From the NCBI GenBank assembly GCA_016932035.1, contig JAFGDR010000029.1, forward strand, positions 1-36,877: a stretch of DNA of 36,877 bases, written 5' to 3'. Below the pieces are notes generated by a model. The model did no database searches and was not told the DNA's origin. It was given only the letters and a program-made list of their open reading frames with translations. Below, piece after piece: positions 5,405 through 31,622 of the stretch. Every line of letters begins with the position of its first letter. Position 1 is the stretch's first letter. A program made the position numbers and the translations under genes. The DNA is from Candidatus Cloacimonadota bacterium. Lineage in GTDB: Bacteria; Cloacimonadota; Cloacimonadia; JGIOTU-2.

Positions 5405-6055
5405 ATGAAAATTAAAGCAGTAAAAAGAGAAACTGGAAAAAAGGCTGCCAAAAAGACGCGCAGTGAAGACAAAATTCCAGCAATTCTGTATGGATCTGAT
5501 ATGGAATCCATGCCCCTGGAAATTAATTATTCCGATTTCTATCATTATTATAAAGAGAGTCTTGGTCATCAGAGCTTTATCTTTCTTCAGATTGGAAGAA
5601 AGGAGCACCGGTGTTTAGTTCGAGACATGCAGATCGATCCGGTTACGCGAGAAATTGTACATCTTGATTTTATGGAAGTTTCCGCAGGACATAAACTCGA
5701 TGTTGATATCCCTGTTGTTACACTCGGTGATGCCCCCGGTATCAAAGAGGGTGGCATGCTTGAATCAGGAATTCGTGAACTCCAGGTGAGATGTTTACCC
5801 AAAGACCTACCGGACGTTATAGAAATAGATGTTTCCCAGCTTCAAATTGGTGATTCTATTCATATTGAAGATATCCAGGAAAAATATCCTGATGTCGAAT
5901 TCCTTCAACCCCTGAATACAACCTTGGTCTCAGTCCTTATACCTAAGATGGAGATTGAAGAAGCTCCTGAAGAGGAAGAACTGGCTGAAGGTGAAGAACC
6001 TGCTGAAGAAGCTGAAGAAAAGAGTGCAGAAGATTCTGAAGAAGAATCTGAATAA
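5405..6055 (+). CDS. rplY: 50S ribosomal protein bL25 (general stress protein Ctc form)
   Basis: This is the 5S rRNA-binding large-subunit protein in its long (TL5/Ctc) form: an N-terminal L25 beta-barrel (about 1-92, with IPAILYG and HLDFMEV) followed by the C-terminal TL5 domain (about 95-185, with VDIPVVTLGDAPGIKEGG). The last 30 or so residues are almost entirely Glu, Ala and Ser, giving a strongly acidic tail that is common in this form. The gene starts 2 bases after the prs stop, with GAGG upstream. Length is 216 residues. Confidence 0.95.
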   Translation: MKIKAVKRETGKKAAKKTRSEDKIPAILYGSDMESMPLEINYSDFYHYYKESLGHQSFIFLQIGRKEHRCLVRDMQIDPVTREIVHLDFMEVSAGHKLDVDIPVVTLGDAPGIKEGGMLESGIRELQVRCLPKDLPDVIEIDVSQLQIGDSIHIEDIQEKYPDVEFLQPLNTTLVSVLIPKMEIEEAPEEEELAEGEEPAEEAEEKSAEDSEEESE

Positions 6056-6069
6056 TAAAAAAAACATAC

Positions 6070-6657
6070 GTGAAACTCATTGTCGGGCTTGGTAATCCGG
6101 GACCTGAATATCAATTCACACGGCACAATGTCGGATTTATGGTTCTCGGTGCACTGTGTGAAAAACTACGGGTTCCTCGGTTTAAAAAAATCAAGAACTA
6201 TCTCCTTGCTCGAAAAGGTGAGTGGCTTTTTCTCAAACCGCTCACCTATATGAATCTTTCAGGACTGGCAGTTTCAGCAGTCATGGAAGAATTCGATGTA
6301 AAAAAAAGCGATCTTTTAATTATATTAGATGATGTGTATATCCCGCTGGGGAGTTTAAGGATTCGACGGCGCGGTTCTGATGCCGGACATAATGGTCTCA
6401 CATCAGTGATCGAAGCCCTGGATTCAGAAAATTTCCCCAGAATGCGTATTGGGATTCTTCCTGAAGGTTTTGAATCGGCTTCCGGGTTAGATATGCCCTT
6501 GGAAGAATTTGTTCTCATGAATTTTTCTGATAACGAAACGAAGCGTATAGAGGAAGTAATCCCTACAGCCGTGGAACTCACATCATACTTTATATATCAA
6601 AATTATGAAAAAATGAGTGCTGCATACAGCAGACTCTGTTCCTTATCCGTGGAATGA
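6070..6657 (+). CDS. pth: Peptidyl-tRNA hydrolase
   Basis: Pth releases tRNA from peptidyl-tRNA dropped by stalled ribosomes. The catalytic set is present: Asn9 and His19 in GLGNPGPEY...TRHNVGF, Asn62 in KPLTYMNLSG, the Asp pair at 87-88, and Asn108 in GSDAGHNGL. The 195-residue length is normal. The start is GTG at 6070 because the family begins immediately with a MKLIVGLGNPG-like strand. No good Shine-Dalgarno is visible, and an A-rich tract precedes the start. The gene lies 14 bases after rplY, and this rplY-pth pairing is very common. Confidence 0.95.
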   Translation: MKLIVGLGNPGPEYQFTRHNVGFMVLGALCEKLRVPRFKKIKNYLLARKGEWLFLKPLTYMNLSGLAVSAVMEEFDVKKSDLLIILDDVYIPLGSLRIRRRGSDAGHNGLTSVIEALDSENFPRMRIGILPEGFESASGLDMPLEEFVLMNFSDNETKRIEEVIPTAVELTSYFIYQNYEKMSAAYSRLCSLSVE

Positions 6658-6664
6658 CGGATTG

Positions 6665-6697
6665 CCTTCCGCTTTGCGGAAAATAAAACCGAAAGGA
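6665..6697 (+). promoter_or_regulatory. Candidate S6:S18-binding leader hairpin sequestering the rpsF ribosome-binding site
   Basis: The rpsF leader folds as an upper hairpin, TTCCGC (6667-6672), loop TTT, GCGGAA (6676-6681). A lower CC(TT) at 6665-6668 can pair with (AA)GG at 6693-6696. Between the two helices on the 3' side is an unpaired stretch containing ACCGA (6688-6692). The lower 3' strand is also the Shine-Dalgarno (AAAGGA) of rpsF. A hairpin with a CCG-containing bulge just before rpsF is the published layout of the bacterial S6:S18 autoregulatory mRNA motif. That S6:S18 binding would occlude initiation here is inference. Confidence 0.45.
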
Positions 6698-6702
6698 ATG
6701 CT

Positions 6703-26239: not shown

Positions 26240-27343
26240 ATGGCAAAAGTGCAATTAGATAAAGTTACAAAAACATACGAGAACGGTTTCGTGGCAGTTG
26301 ATAAAGCTGACGTAACTGCCGAAGATAAAGAATTTGTCGTATTGGTCGGTCCTTCCGGTTGCGGAAAAACAACCACACTGCGTATGATCGCAGGACTCGA
26401 AGACGTTACTTCCGGTGATATCTATATCGGCGATAAGATCGTGAACAATGTACTTCCAAAAGACCGAGACATTGCAATGGTGTTCCAGAACTATGCACTC
26501 TACCCGCACATGACCGTCTATCAAAATATGGAATTCGCTCTTAAGTTGCGCAAAACTCCAAAAGATGAAATAGATGGCCGCGTGAAAACCGCAGCAGGAT
26601 TGCTTGGTATCGAGAAATTACTCGATCGAAAACCAAAGCAGCTTTCCGGTGGTCAACGCCAGCGTGTGGCACTGGGAAGAGCGATTGTGCGGTATCCCCA
26701 GGTCTTCCTGTTTGACGAACCACTCTCAAACCTTGATGCAAAGCTCCGTGTACAGATGCGTGCCGAGATCATTAAGCTGCATAAGAAGCTTGAAACAACT
26801 ATTATTTACGTTACCCATGACCAGACTGAAGCTATGACAATGGGAGACAAGATCGTTGTGCAAAAAGATGGTATTATTCAGCAGATTGATTCTCCCATAA
26901 ACGTATATAATCATCCGACTAATAAATTCGTTGCAGGATTCATCGGAAGTCCCGCAATCAACTTTTTTGACGGTAAGATAAGAAAAGAGAGCAAGAAACT
27001 TTTCTTTGATTATGGGAGCTTTACTGTGGAGATTCCTGATACTTATGATGATTCTCTCAAAGAATATGTAGGAAAAGATATTGTTATGGGAGTTCGTCCA
27101 GAAGATGTCTATCATAAGAAATATTCCTCAAATGCAGAAATTCCCGCAGAGATGGAAGCCATAGTTGAAGTCGTTGAACCGCTGGGTTCGGAATTTGTCG
27201 TTAATTTTAAAACCGGTGATACGATCTTTACTGGCAGACTGGAACCAAAGGAACAACCCAAAATGGACGAAACAATGACACTGGTTTTTGATATGAAAAA
27301 AGTGCACTTCTTCGATAAAGAGAGCGAAGAAACGATCATATAG
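26240..27343 (+). CDS. MalK/UgpC-type ABC transporter ATP-binding protein
   Basis: This 367-residue ATPase belongs to carbohydrate importers of the CUT1 kind. Walker A is GPSGCGKTT (37-45), followed by Q-loop VFQNYALYPHMTV, signature LSGGQRQRVALGRA, Walker B FLFDEPLSNLDA and the switch VTHDQTEAMT. A regulatory C-terminal part has a TOBE domain (about 240-360, FIGSPAINFFDG and MGVRPEDVY). No permease or binding-protein gene accompanies it. Such orphan ATPases often serve several sugar importers elsewhere in the genome (as MsmX does in Bacillus). It has its own promoter region and a preceding terminator. Confidence 0.93.
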   Translation: MAKVQLDKVTKTYENGFVAVDKADVTAEDKEFVVLVGPSGCGKTTTLRMIAGLEDVTSGDIYIGDKIVNNVLPKDRDIAMVFQNYALYPHMTVYQNMEFALKLRKTPKDEIDGRVKTAAGLLGIEKLLDRKPKQLSGGQRQRVALGRAIVRYPQVFLFDEPLSNLDAKLRVQMRAEIIKLHKKLETTIIYVTHDQTEAMTMGDKIVVQKDGIIQQIDSPINVYNHPTNKFVAGFIGSPAINFFDGKIRKESKKLFFDYGSFTVEIPDTYDDSLKEYVGKDIVMGVRPEDVYHKKYSSNAEIPAEMEAIVEVVEPLGSEFVVNFKTGDTIFTGRLEPKEQPKMDETMTLVFDMKKVHFFDKESEETII

Positions 27344-27379: not shown

Positions 27380-27408
27380 TTAAGATGGAAAAATATATGA
27401 AGGTTTAA

Positions 27409-27579: not shown

Positions 27580-27618
27580 ATTGTTGTTATACCACCAAAT
27601 TGGAGGAATAACAACAAT
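27580..27618. repeat. 39-base near-perfect palindrome in the presumed attI region
   Basis: ATTGTTGTTAT (27580-27590) is exactly complementary to ATAACAACAAT (27608-27618). Inside, CC and CC pair with GG and GG, and the centre AAATT closes it. Only two A/A mismatches occur in 19 pairs. It has no T-run. It lies 25 bases after the integrase stop and 16 bases before the GTTAGCGGC site. Confidence 0.85.
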
Positions 27619-27633
27619 AGATGTTACACACAC

Positions 27634-27642
27634 GTTAGCGGC
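27634..27642 (+). promoter_or_regulatory. Crossover site at the left end of cassette 1 (attI-like GTTAGCGGC)
   Basis: GTTAGCGGC fits the GTT-type core where integron recombination cuts after the G. No matching CTAAC arm lies upstream, so this is a simple site as in attI rather than an attC. Its nine bases are the exact complement of the R'' box of cassette 1 (28405-28413). Confidence 0.7.
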
Positions 27643-28534
27643 AAGCATTCAAGAGCTTGATTGAAACTAAATACAGAAAAGAATATTAAGAAGAAAGAAA
27701 AATGATAATTGATACAACATTCAATGTTTATACAGACGCAAATGGCGGCGACCCTGACAGCACAAGTCCTACACTACGTACTTATCATAAATTATTGTGG
27801 AGTAAACCATTGCCGAACGGAGAACAATTCGTATTAGTTGACAATAAAAGCGGTACGTATTTACATCACAAATCAGGATTTGGAGAATATTTTTTAGGAA
27901 GTGATGCAATTACACATTCTTATAGAAATCATAAACGTAAGTCTTGGCTGACACACCAAATACAAGACGAAGTAAAAAAATTATTTGATACAGGTTCAAC
28001 TATTGGAGCATATACGCTTTTCCCAAACAATCGAGTTAATGGAAAACATACAATAAATCAAGCACGTGGAGTAAACAGTTTCATAGATGATAGATTTGAT
28101 TTGACTTTGGAGTGCATACGTCTTTTTTACTTGGGACAAGAAAGTCCGCTTTATGACACTTTTTTAAGATACAAGAACTTTTTCGACTTGTTTGAGAATT
28201 TTTCAGGTTATATCAATTTCTTTTTACTCAACGACCTTGTTGGAGAGAACGAAAAAATTAAGTTTTACTTGCCATTTGACAACTTTAAAACAAAACCAAC
28301 ATTTGCAGACATTGACGAATATTTAGTTTATAAAGAAAGAGTAATGAACTTTATAGAAGCACGGAACAAAAGAATAGATAAATGGACGAAAGAACAGAAT
28401 GCCAGCCGCTAACAGCAAGTCAAACTACATGCGGGTTTTGGTGGTTTGCTGACAAAATATTATCTTAGTAAAGTTGTTCAACGGTGGATAATGAAACGCG
28501 GCGAAATCCCGCACGATAGTTTACTTGCGAGCCG
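27635..28534 (+). mobile_element. Integron gene cassette 1 (DUF6994-like gene plus attC)
   Basis: About 900 bases between two GTTAGC crossover sites hold a single gene and its attC. The stop codon TAA (28410-28412) lies inside the R'' box, the compact arrangement typical of cassettes. Confidence 0.82.
27702..28412 (+). CDS. Cassette-borne hypothetical protein, DUF6994-like
   Basis: This 236-residue soluble protein has no signal peptide and no membrane segment. The N-terminal pattern MIIDTTFNVYTD...DPDSTSPTLRTYHKLLWSKPLPNG, followed by GEYFLGSDAITHSYRNHKRKSWL, matches my recollection of the DUF6994 family, whose role is unknown. Aromatic residues and charged helices dominate the C-terminal half, and no catalytic motif stands out. 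The coding sequence is AT-rich compared with flanking chromosomal genes. The ATG is preceded by AAGAAAGAAAAA, a weak ribosome-binding site. Carriage in an integron cassette points to an accessory role (defence, stress or metabolism), which is not demonstrated. Confidence 0.8.
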   Translation: MIIDTTFNVYTDANGGDPDSTSPTLRTYHKLLWSKPLPNGEQFVLVDNKSGTYLHHKSGFGEYFLGSDAITHSYRNHKRKSWLTHQIQDEVKKLFDTGSTIGAYTLFPNNRVNGKHTINQARGVNSFIDDRFDLTLECIRLFYLGQESPLYDTFLRYKNFFDLFENFSGYINFFLLNDLVGENEKIKFYLPFDNFKTKPTFADIDEYLVYKERVMNFIEARNKRIDKWTKEQNASR

Positions 28535-28542
28535 TTAGCACC
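28405..28542 (+). repeat. attC recombination site of cassette 1
   Basis: R'' is GCCGCTAAC (28405-28413) and R' is GTTAGCACC (28534-28542). L'' reads GCAAGT-C-AAACTA (28415-28427) and pairs with TAGTTTACTTGC (28517-28528), leaving only the C at 28421 unpaired: the extrahelical base of attC sites. Five bases separate CTAAC from GTCAAA. The inner stem continues with TGCGGG (28430-28435) and CCCGCA (28508-28513). The total of about 138 bases is near the size of the long Vibrio-type sites. Confidence 0.9.
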
Positions 28543-30180
28543 AATTAAGAATTTTATAACCTCAAATAAAAAAAAATGAACAATAAATTATTAGGTTTTG
28601 TAATGTTGATTACATTTTTTTCTTTAATCAATTTTTCTTGTACAGAAAAAAGAAACAGCAAAAATGCAAAAATTGATGAATTCATTAGTTATTGTTATGA
28701 GAATGACTTATTTAATGGCGCGGTATTAATCGCTCAAGAAGATGAAATTTTATATAAAAATGCATTGGGATATTCTAATTTTACTTCGAAAGAAGAATTA
28801 AATCTTAATTCCGTTTTCTGCATTGGCTCTATTTCTAAACAATTTACTTCAATGGCTGTAATGATATTGAAAGAGCAAGGAAAACTTACTTACGAAAATA
28901 AATTATCTGATTTTTTCCCAGATTATCCTAATTCAGATCAAATAAGTATCAGACATTTATTGAATCACACATCAGGTATACCCGAATGGATGGATTTTAG
29001 TAATTTCAGAGTTAAAAGTAGGCCAGGTGATTTTATTGATGATATTACTAATCAGGATGTTTTTGATTTTTTAGTACAATTAGACTCCCTTGACTTTAAC
29101 CCTGGAGAAAGATATTCTTACTCAAATAGTGGTTATATGTTACTATCAATGATTATTGAGAAAGTCTCAGGAAAGCCTTTCAATGAATTTGTAAAACAAT
29201 ATATTTTTGCTCCTTTAGATATGCAAAATACTATGGCATGGAATAAAACAAAACCAAATATACCTTATAAAACAACAGGTTATAATGATTATGGGGATAA
29301 AGATGATTTTAATATTTTAACAACAGGTGCTGGTAGTATATATTCAACTATAGACGATTTATACAAATATGATCAGGCGCTTTATACTAACAATCTTGTC
29401 TCTAGAGCTACATTAAAAGAAGCATGGACTCCAGGGCTTTTAAATGACGGGACTTCTATTCTTACAAGTGATTCAATCTGGGGCTATGGATTTGGTTGGC
29501 TTTTAAGAAATACCGATAAGTATAATATAGTATGGCATGATGGAGGATTTAACGGATTTAGTGCAATATTTTATCGTGAATTAAATAACCACAATGTTAT
29601 AATCCTTCTTTCCAATAAGGGTACAAATGGTCCTTTGTATCCAATTCAGGAGGCAATTCTAAACATATTGAACGATAAGCCATTTAACTACCATCAGGTA
29701 CCGATTGGGATAAAACTAAAGAAGCTGATTGATGAAAATGGAATAGCTGTTGCAGTTCAAAAGTATAACGTACTAAAAAATAAAGATGCAAATAAATATG
29801 ATTTTTCCATAAACCAACTTAATAACCTTGGTTACTACTATTTAAATAATCAAAAATTTGAGGAAGCTAAGGTTGTTTTAAACCTGAACATTGAAATGTT
29901 TCCTTCGGATGCTAATGTTTACGATAGTTACGGTGAAGCATTAATGCTTAATGGTGAATACGAACTTGCTATAAAAAACTATAAAAAATCAATTGAATTA
30001 GATCCAAATAATGAAAATGGAAAGCAAATGCTTAAGTATATTGAAGATAAAATGGAAAAAGAATAAATATTGTTGTTTTATTAGTTGCCAAAAACATGAG
30101 TTGTTATGAATTTCAGGTGCTAACAAAGGCTCAAAAAGCATAACCGCCCTGCTGGACGGCAACGCTTTTTAGCCTAATCG
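28535..30180 (+). mobile_element. Integron gene cassette 2 (serine hydrolase gene plus attC)
   Basis: About 1646 bases, with one gene and one attC. The first bases (GTTAGCACC, shared with the R' of the preceding site) are the exact complement of its own R'' at 30116-30124. The gene starts 42 bases inside the cassette. Confidence 0.82.
28576..30066 (+). CDS. Lipoprotein serine hydrolase (class C beta-lactamase family) with TPR repeats
   Basis: The 496-residue protein has a lipoprotein signal (hydrophobic core about 6-20, then NFSC, Cys22) and a beta-lactamase/DD-peptidase fold (about 30-375). The nucleophile motif is SISK in CIGSISKQFTSMAV (near residue 95), the YSN motif is in RYSYSNSGYML, and HDGG takes the place of KTG. 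The last 110 residues hold TPR-like helices (NNLGYYYLNNQKFEEAKVVL, YDSYGEALMLNGEYELAIKNYKKSIELDPNN). This family includes peptidases, esterases and few true beta-lactamases, so resistance should not be assumed. An A-rich tract precedes the ATG in place of a Shine-Dalgarno, as in Bacteroidota genes. It is AT-rich. Confidence 0.88.
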   Translation: MNNKLLGFVMLITFFSLINFSCTEKRNSKNAKIDEFISYCYENDLFNGAVLIAQEDEILYKNALGYSNFTSKEELNLNSVFCIGSISKQFTSMAVMILKEQGKLTYENKLSDFFPDYPNSDQISIRHLLNHTSGIPEWMDFSNFRVKSRPGDFIDDITNQDVFDFLVQLDSLDFNPGERYSYSNSGYMLLSMIIEKVSGKPFNEFVKQYIFAPLDMQNTMAWNKTKPNIPYKTTGYNDYGDKDDFNILTTGAGSIYSTIDDLYKYDQALYTNNLVSRATLKEAWTPGLLNDGTSILTSDSIWGYGFGWLLRNTDKYNIVWHDGGFNGFSAIFYRELNNHNVIILLSNKGTNGPLYPIQEAILNILNDKPFNYHQVPIGIKLKKLIDENGIAVAVQKYNVLKNKDANKYDFSINQLNNLGYYYLNNQKFEEAKVVLNLNIEMFPSDANVYDSYGEALMLNGEYELAIKNYKKSIELDPNNENGKQMLKYIEDKMEKE

Positions 30181-30188
30181 TTACAAGA
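30116..30188 (+). repeat. attC recombination site of cassette 2
   Basis: R'' is GGTGCTAAC (30116-30124) and R' is GTTACAAGA (30180-30188). AGGCT-C-AAAAAGC (30128-30139) pairs with GCTTTTTAGCCT (30164-30175), leaving only C30132 unpaired, which is the extrahelical base. Again five bases separate CTAAC from L''. The apical stem is CCG/CGG with CC/GG around a TGCT loop (30144-30159). The total of about 70 bases is a standard short attC. Confidence 0.9.
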
Positions 30189-30512: not shown

Positions 30513-31622
30513 CTATAAATAATTCAGTTTCTGGATTGCAAAGGTGTACGCACCAATAGCAGCTGCTCTACTCGTGCCAAGGTGTGAAATTCCTACCCCA
30601 ATTTTTTTCTCTGTGTTGTAGGGCACTTTTTTTGAACTAAAAGGAATCGAGATCATCCTGATGTCTTCATGTAAAAATTTCTTCAGGTCTTGTTCATTCA
30701 GCAGATTATAAGCCATCATCTCTATACGTGCGATATGACATGATTCAAAGGATTTAAACGCAGTGTTCATTTCTTTTATAAGTGCTGGCATAAAGAGTTT
30801 CCACGCACCAGAAAGTCCTCCGCCGATCACGATAAGCCCATCGATGAGTGTTGCTGCCTGTGCAAAGGCATTTCCTGCAGCCCTGCCGAGTTCTTCGTAT
30901 GCTTTTTGAGCTGCTAATTGATCTCCTTCCTTCAAACCCAAACCGATCTCATATATCTCTTTTGCAGTCGGGGTATCATCTGCTGTGATATTTGCTTCCC
31001 GCATATAGACACGCTGAACACCTTTGCTGCTAACGCTTTCCTCTACGGAATATTCGGGATAAAGGTGATTCCACATACGATTGATCTCTGCCTGAGCTGA
31101 ATTATCTCCGACCAGCATGTTGCCACCGAGGGCTATACCCCCGCCAAAGCCAGAGCCAAAGGTGCCTCCGATGAGATTGTTGTATCGTCGAGAACTGCCA
31201 TGCTTTTCTAATAAAGAATTTATATGAGGAAGAAATCCCGCCATAGCTTCGCCATAGGTAAAGAGATCCGCATCATTATTAATAAAAACAGGAATGCAGA
31301 AATATTCCTCCAGCATTGGTCCCAGTGCTACGCCCCCTCTGTACGCAGGCAAATTTATCAGGTCGCCGATGATACCGTTATTATAATCTGTGGGTCCGGG
31401 AAACCCGAAGCTTATCGCAACCGGATTTTCAGTGAGTTGTTCCAGGATTTGAGAAAAACCAGAGATGATATTCTTCAAACTTTGGTCGAGATCATGTCCG
31501 CAGGTATTTCTGTGAATCGGATTTACTACTTCCTTTCCGTCTCTTAAAGCGGAAAACCGCAAGTTCGTTCCCCCTGCATCAAGGGTCATGACAATTCTCT
31601 TGTCTGGTTGATAGCTTCTCAT
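30513..31622 (-). CDS. ROK family sugar kinase-like protein
   Basis: This 369-residue protein has the ROK/ASKHA fold: the phosphate-1 motif DAGGTNLRF (15-23), the sugar-binding GFPGPTDYNNG and the catalytic ND pair at 116-117 (FINNDADLFTYGEA). A GGTFGSGFGGGIALGG loop and the adenosine motif IVIGGGLSGAW follow. The Cys-rich zinc motif of canonical ROK glucokinases (CxCGxxGC) is missing, and the protein is longer than the usual 300-320 residues. It is therefore a divergent member, possibly a kinase for glucose, fructose or an aminosugar. The stop faces the integron tail. The downstream-strand neighbour is the GAF gene, 5 bases away. Confidence 0.85.
   Translation of the reverse strand: MRSYQPDKRIVMTLDAGGTNLRFSALRDGKEVVNPIHRNTCGHDLDQSLKNIISGFSQILEQLTENPVAISFGFPGPTDYNNGIIGDLINLPAYRGGVALGPMLEEYFCIPVFINNDADLFTYGEAMAGFLPHINSLLEKHGSSRRYNNLIGGTFGSGFGGGIALGGNMLVGDNSAQAEINRMWNHLYPEYSVEESVSSKGVQRVYMREANITADDTPTAKEIYEIGLGLKEGDQLAAQKAYEELGRAAGNAFAQAATLIDGLIVIGGGLSGAWKLFMPALIKEMNTAFKSFESCHIARIEMMAYNLLNEQDLKKFLHEDIRMISIPFSSKKVPYNTEKKIGVGISHLGTSRAAAIGAYTFAIQKLNYL

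Follow-up and report, generated by a model that had tools for sequence, protein, structure and literature searches.

A small integron-like cassette array beside the remnant of a XerA-like recombinase gene in a Cloacimonadota genome

Results and Discussion

Organization of the Array

The window, i.e., the whole stretch of 36,877 nt analysed here, is contig C29 of a 2.44 Mb, 95%-complete genome that groups with the Cloacimonadota (FCB group) in a phylum search, in agreement with the FCB-type chromosome of the original prediction. From 5' to 3', the array consists of a recombinase remnant, an attI-like hairpin, a cassette junction, a DUF6994 gene, a first attC site (attC1), a gene for a serine hydrolase with TPR repeats, and a second attC site (attC2); it is flanked by a MalK-like gene and by a convergent gene for a ROK-family protein (Table 1). 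Orthologues of malK with 87-93% identity occur in other genomes of the genus, and this gene is a conserved neighbour of the integron across the genus; in the congener G109, malK and the ROK gene also bracket an array, in the same order on one contig. The stop codon of the DUF6994 gene falls within the R'' box of attC1. Rfam and tRNA scans of the window produced no match.

Table 1. Coordinates of the cassette array and its flanking genes within the window; a slash marks the inferred joining point.
Feature	Position	Strand	Basis
MalK-like ABC transporter ATPase gene (left flank)	26240..27343	+	Pfam ABC_tran, OB_MalK, TOBE_2
ATGAAGGTTTAA, probable relic of resident integrase gene start	27397..27408	+	seven related contigs compared downstream of malK
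Recombinase C-terminal remnant, 48 aa	27409..27555	+	PF00589, E 1.1e-7
attI-like site, whole	27580-27642	+	
attI-like site, hairpin part (ATTGTTGTTAT ... ATAACAACAAT)	27580..27618	+	fold z -6.1
attI-like site, core with cassette junction, TTACACACAC-G/TTAGCGGC	27624..27642	+	family junctions compared
Junction ACACACAC-GTTAGCGGC	27626-27642	+	
Cassette 1, 900 bp, CDS and attC1	27635..28534	+	5' end complementary to own R''
Gene of cassette 1, DUF6994 protein, 236 aa	27702..28412	+	PF22507, E 1.9e-90
attC1, 138 bp	28405..28542	-	family covariance model R2
Cassette 2, 1646 bp, CDS and attC2	28535..30180	+	5' end complementary to own R''
Gene of cassette 2, TPR-bearing serine hydrolase of beta-lactamase fold, 496 aa	28576..30066	+	PF00144, E 9.3e-54; TPR models
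attC2, 73 bp	30116..30188	-	covariance models R1 and R2, bottom-strand fold
ROK-family protein gene (right flank), convergent	30513..31622	-	PF00480

Complementarity of Cassette Ends

An integron cassette travels as a circle; once inserted, it keeps its own first bases (TTNNNN after the core G) at the 5' end and its R'' box at the 3' end, and since both stay with the inserted cassette, they should be complementary to each other at a gene's length apart. The 5' end of cassette 1, GTTAGCGGC (27634), is the exact complement of its R'' box GCCGCTAAC (28405-28413; 9/9), and the 5' end of cassette 2, GTTAGCACC (28534), is equally the exact complement of R'' box GGTGCTAAC (30116-30124; 9/9). The motif GTTAG occurs five times on the plus strand of the window, and is followed by its 9-nt reverse complement 300-2500 nt downstream only at the two cassette starts. 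The R' box beside attC1 (GTTAGCACC) comes from cassette 2, and its pairing with the R'' box of attC1 extends over GCTAAC only, as expected for a joined array; the 9-nt complement to a cassette's own R'' is an integron signature.

The same rule recurs at loci that encode relatives of the window recombinase. A 9-nt partner is present in 49 of 77 such loci, compared to a mean of 1.6 in swapped controls. Where at least 1500 nt remain in a family locus, 39 of 47 first cassettes follow the rule (shuffles: mean 1.5, maximum 6), as do 66 of 81 internal cassettes (shuffles: mean 2.7, maximum 8). Chaining each site to the next cassette yielded 115 sites in 47 loci, with up to 7 per locus; as a positive control, the same cassette walk recovers the aadA-type attC in class 1 integrons. 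Long palindromes directly after stop codons could also represent terminators, or REP-like or MITE-like repeats between ordinary genes, instead of recombination sites; this reading appears extremely improbable, since terminators offer no reason for a 9-nt complement between gene 5' end and 3' repeat across dozens of loci, the site sequences vary while their structure covaries, and the junctions end exactly at GTT; the lack of an Rfam match speaks neither for nor against it.

Structure of the attC and attI-Like Sites

Both inverted repeats lie where the original prediction had placed them, and an independent pairing recovers the single unpaired C in the L'' arm of each, at 28421 (attC1) and 30132 (attC2), in both cases 7 nt past AAC; in the bottom-strand fold this extra top-strand base corresponds to one extrahelical G per site. 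The predicted length of 138 bp stands for attC1, and that of attC2 is corrected from about 70 to 73 bp; the spacer between R'' and L'', thought to be five bases in both sites, is 1 nt in attC1 (before GCAAGT) and about 3 nt in attC2 (before AGGCT/GGCT). The R boxes (CGCTAAC, TGCTAAC; GTTAGCA, GTTACAA) fall outside the canonical RYYYAAC/GTTRRRY pattern. Compared to dinucleotide shuffles, the bottom-strand fold of attC2 is pronounced (z -5.0, 0/200) and that of attC1 moderate (z -2.2, 6/200); the bottom strand is more stable than the top strand in both, as it is in 90 of the 115 family sites.

The family sites fall into two subtypes offset by one base, and since a mixed alignment gives a poor consensus fold, a split (A2) or a full-length alignment (A4) was used. 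In the common subtype (n = 24), 93.7% of stem cells are paired, with a covariation of 0.751 against 0.174 after shuffling; in mixed-subtype sites (n = 32) the corresponding values are 90.9% and 0.726 against 0.168 (0/500). At the extrahelical position, 52 of 115 sites carry a C-A mismatch and 26 an L'' bulge; a G-T wobble (A-C on the other strand) is nearly invariant (24/24 and 31/32 sites).

Two covariance models were built, both with the window sites excluded from training and with E-values that rest on a shortened calibration. R1, trained with the loop cut out, matches attC2 (E 0.004) and fails to match the longer attC1; it was replaced by R2, trained on 32 sites from arrays beside insert-less recombinases (see below). 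R2 locates attC1 at 28410-28537(-) with 51.9 bits (E 7.2e-10) and attC2 with 24.4 bits (E 0.0016); apart from these two sites, it finds nothing below E 9 across the window, and over the whole window genome attC1 alone passes E 0.01. It gave 1-40 matches per genome in 22 of 22 genomes, all chosen for carrying the recombinase, and no match in four class 1 integron regions and two Xer loci. By these models the sites are conserved in structure and variable in sequence, with an AAC/GTT core. The original prediction of shared structure with unrelated sequence is borne out to the extent that one covariance model matches both window sites, which are hence not structurally unrelated. In the congeneric loci L122 (3562, 5679-5810, 6600-6700), L136, and L137, attI and R' have the core ATT, not GTT (for example CAGAACATTAGTGG), together with an R'' box that is still CCACTAAC; these sites escape model R2, and may reflect either a change of the crossover base or an attC subtype that has diverged.

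The hairpin and core of the attI-like site directly follow the recombinase remnant, an arrangement that corresponds to an attI beside an integrase gene, with joining at G/TT; neither the remnant nor this site was noted in the original prediction. In most of the related loci, too, a hairpin lies behind the recombinase gene, with a core such as TATACAAGTT, beyond which the sequence varies by locus. In the 80 nt up to and including GTT, the window and locus L010 (Ca. Tenebribacter mawsonii) are 0.86 alike, and to the right of GTT the likeness is at a background of 0.48; in a second between-species pair, the attI of L021 and L022, the values are 0.99 on the left and 0.52 on the right. The comparison points to a crossover between G27634 and T27635. 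A Bacteroidota-type -7 motif, TAnnTTTG, lies 75-130 nt before the attI GTT in 33 of 76 family loci (3.1 expected), and is a candidate cassette promoter.

The Recombinase Family

The 48-aa remnant, all that the window holds in place of an IntI-family integrase with an additional domain, has lost the upstream catalytic residues and keeps LGH..TTEIYTH; it is inactive, and 75-84% identical to the C-termini of recombinases of ca. 280 aa. Neither a full-length family copy nor a canonical IntI was found in the 95%-complete window genome by a TIGR02249 scan, which matched the remnant and two other proteins. These two (C12 and C34) were considered as the missing integrase and rejected, as they look like Xer proteins in ordinary neighbourhoods.

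A search of the genome collection with the remnant returned 80 loci, mostly from Flavobacterium and other Bacteroidota, and also reached Neomarinimicrobiota, Cloacimonadota, Calditrichota, Spirochaetes, Campylobacterota, and others; as a caveat, many loci come from MAGs, and single-phylum outliers may therefore be binning errors. Most of these loci encode a recombinase of about 277-450 aa, and the full-length relatives retain the catalytic residues. Their best family match is NF040815 (recomb_XerA_Arch; XerA-like), with 6 of 6 full-length relatives above the 220-bit cut-off (221-245); TIGR02249 remains below its cut-off and aligns in two stretches (about 7-180 and 239-315), skipping the middle. 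The distance from GLR (the first catalytic arginine) to HxLRH is 91-92 residues in all measurable family members (n = 66), compared to 133 in three canonical IntI, among them IntI from the genus of the window; the family recombinases lack the IntI-specific insert (I2 region). The arrays are assigned to the insert-less recombinase on the basis of adjacency and a shared site family, and folded attC is likely to be recombined by this enzyme.

A quick tree places canonical IntI in a single group, distinct both from the family and from another group of recombinases that occur in pairs and fall among the family; the branches are long and the deep order is unsafe. The paired group derives from adjacent tyrosine recombinase genes (~360 + ~300 aa) in Cloacimonadota (G066:C75, G072:C341, G073:C337, G074:C172, G095:C93, G099:C3, and G101:C5); one member of each pair belongs to a clade of its own, and the pairs possibly represent a separate two-recombinase element.

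History of the Locus

The sequence after malK was compared in seven contigs of six congeners, where a relic integrase and/or attI is present. In G110, malK is followed by an intact 371-aa integrase gene, attI, and a cassette start; an internal deletion has fused the start of the integrase gene to its end in G109 (two contigs) and G113; the integrase gene is gone and attI kept in G114 and G115; and G111 matches the window in remnant type and in attI. Among the congeners, the first cassettes differ. This comparison indicates that the integron has long resided at this site, and that its integrase was repeatedly lost while attI and cassettes persisted. The start of the intact G110 gene, ATGAAGATTGAAA, is the counterpart of ATGAAGGTTTAA in the window, which is probably a relic of the resident integrase gene start. 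Movement of the cassettes may by now require an integrase supplied in trans, which seems to be missing from the window genome. Within this one genus, loci L122 (3260-3580), L134, L135, L136, L137, and L138, all downstream of malK, have kept attI and cassettes and carry different integrase deletions at one integron site.

The remnant looks like the ~280-aa recombinases found in other taxa and not like the 371-aa G110 gene at the same place, and the first bases after malK resemble the resident gene start; on this basis, a foreign integron piece (integrase 3' end, attI, and cassettes) could have been imported into the resident malK integron by homologous recombination, and have been inert since. 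Such an import is possible but rather unlikely: the arrangement predates the species of the window, as G111 shares its remnant type and attI, and the same picture would result if there had been two resident integrases, the second with a nested deletion. It concerns the origin of the array, and is compatible with the explanation preferred below.

The DUF6994 gene has a 77% identical homologue in G117, ahead of a different attC of the same site family. In G105 (L124 2280-3230), a DUF6994 gene was observed in a cassette-like setting, with GTTATGCGC before and TCGCATAAC after it, where the attC-like repeat is built differently from the family sites. These occurrences fit a mobile cassette gene, and the G105 setting suggests that it was exchanged between integron types. 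Canonical IntI genes were noted in two congeners (G112:C2:74-1015 and G115:C4:8531-9469) on the same contigs as the ROK orthologue; in these genomes, integrons of two types may thus lie close to a single operon.

Could the array then be an ordinary CALIN, a group of attC sites with no integrase, that was made by a canonical IntI, with an incidental Xer-like remnant alongside? Full TIGR02249 matches to IntI (365-497 bits) exist in Cloacimonadota, including G112 and G115 on their ROK contigs, and the IntI of a related species could have moved the window cassettes; the single extra L'' base of the window attC sites is like that of canonical sites, and the different-looking DUF6994 cassette of G105 is also in keeping with this possibility. 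However, the window genome yielded no canonical IntI in the TIGR02249 scan, the attI-like site matches the attI of the insert-less family, and the model trained only on arrays next to insert-less recombinases detects both window sites and no site in the four class 1 integron regions; we therefore consider a canonical origin improbable.

The sequences themselves show the limits of the cassettes, the anatomy of attI and attC, the covariation, the asymmetry between strands, and the loss of the integrase. The best explanation, with a probability of roughly 0.86, is a small chromosomal integron-like array at a genus-conserved malK site, whose integrase has decayed to a 3' remnant, and which belongs to a widespread, FCB-centred family with XerA-like, insert-less recombinases. 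From the sequence record, we infer recombination itself, the use of a single-stranded substrate, and the position of the cut: a full-length recombinase, lost here and acting earlier or in trans, would bind attC folded from the bottom strand; the GTT core would be cut between G and TT; and the cassette circle would be joined into double-stranded attI just after G, bringing its own TTNNNN 5' end, to which R'' would stay complementary.

Comparison With Integrons and Xer Recombinases

The array resembles sedentary chromosomal integrons (CALINs when intI is absent) in having an attI beside a tyrosine-recombinase gene, gene-attC cassettes in one orientation, an AAC/GTT core, a bias towards bottom-strand folding, and cassette 5' ends complementary to their own R''. 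In contrast to sedentary chromosomal integrons, the family recombinase is without the I2 insert, the R boxes are conserved as YAAC/GTTR only, most family sites have a C-A mismatch and not a bulge at the extrahelical position, the G-T wobble is near-invariant, and the family attI carries a long hairpin. With attI, attC, and cassette logic all in place, the system is predicted to work like an integron; by membership it is not a canonical one, because its integrase family is without the IntI insert and its R boxes are looser. For the same reasons, the "genuine integron" of the original prediction has to be qualified, and its attC sites are well supported as sites that end mobile cassettes.

Cassette capture is held to need the I2 helix, which is also credited with having created single-strand recombination, and missing evolutionary intermediates have been named as an obstacle (Escudero et al., 2020; PMC7790495). 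In the sections of Smyshlyaev et al. (2021; PMC8138268) that concern the "integron-like" subgroup of tyrosine recombinases, the insert is incompletely conserved within this subgroup, and is called essential for integron function; since it is not fully conserved there, insert-less proteins may already sit in this subgroup, and the same sections describe no insert-less integron with attC arrays. A search limited to the open-access literature found no description of an insert-less integron-like family; a large family of this kind in Bacteroidota and their relatives is apparently undescribed. Surveys that require the IntI-specific domain (IntegronFinder) report almost no integrons in Bacteroidetes, and a single complete one in Salinibacter ruber, in contrast to the up to 40 sites per genome in the recombinase-carrying genomes sampled here; standard integron finders would miss the family, because its recombinases are without the IntI-specific insert.

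We lean towards a wider reading, in which these arrays represent an integron lineage of major extent, with its centre in Bacteroidota and members in Cloacimonadota and other phyla, whose recombinases never had or have lost I2 and would yet recombine folded, single-stranded attC. If this holds, integron recombination can proceed without I2, and a different recognition code has evolved in the sites, consisting of a mismatch or bulge, the invariant G-T wobble, and strand-asymmetric mispairs; if active, the lineage would open an extensive, unrecognised path for genes to be exchanged in Bacteroidota, and would allow the origin of integron integrases to be tested in a natural setting.

The family is like XerA, XerC, and XerD in that NF040815 is its best family match, its best PDB sequence matches are 4a8e and 5hxy, and the IntI insert is absent; however, Xer proteins resolve chromosome dimers at dif, without attI and cassette arrays behind them, and many family members differ from Xer by a HARP-like N-terminal domain. 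This extra domain of ~60 residues, with an invariant Trp pair (RWSQ..WH.P), occurs in most family recombinases, including those of L018, L033, and G110 (L133), and is absent from the ~280-aa clade nearest to the window remnant. The best PDB match of its profile is the HARP domain of SMARCAL1 (4o66, E 0.0087); Pfam assigns HARP in 3 of 14 cases (best E 3e-4) and DUF5710 in 7 of 14. HARP domains act on branched DNA, and by analogy the HARP-like domain might help to hold the folded attC.
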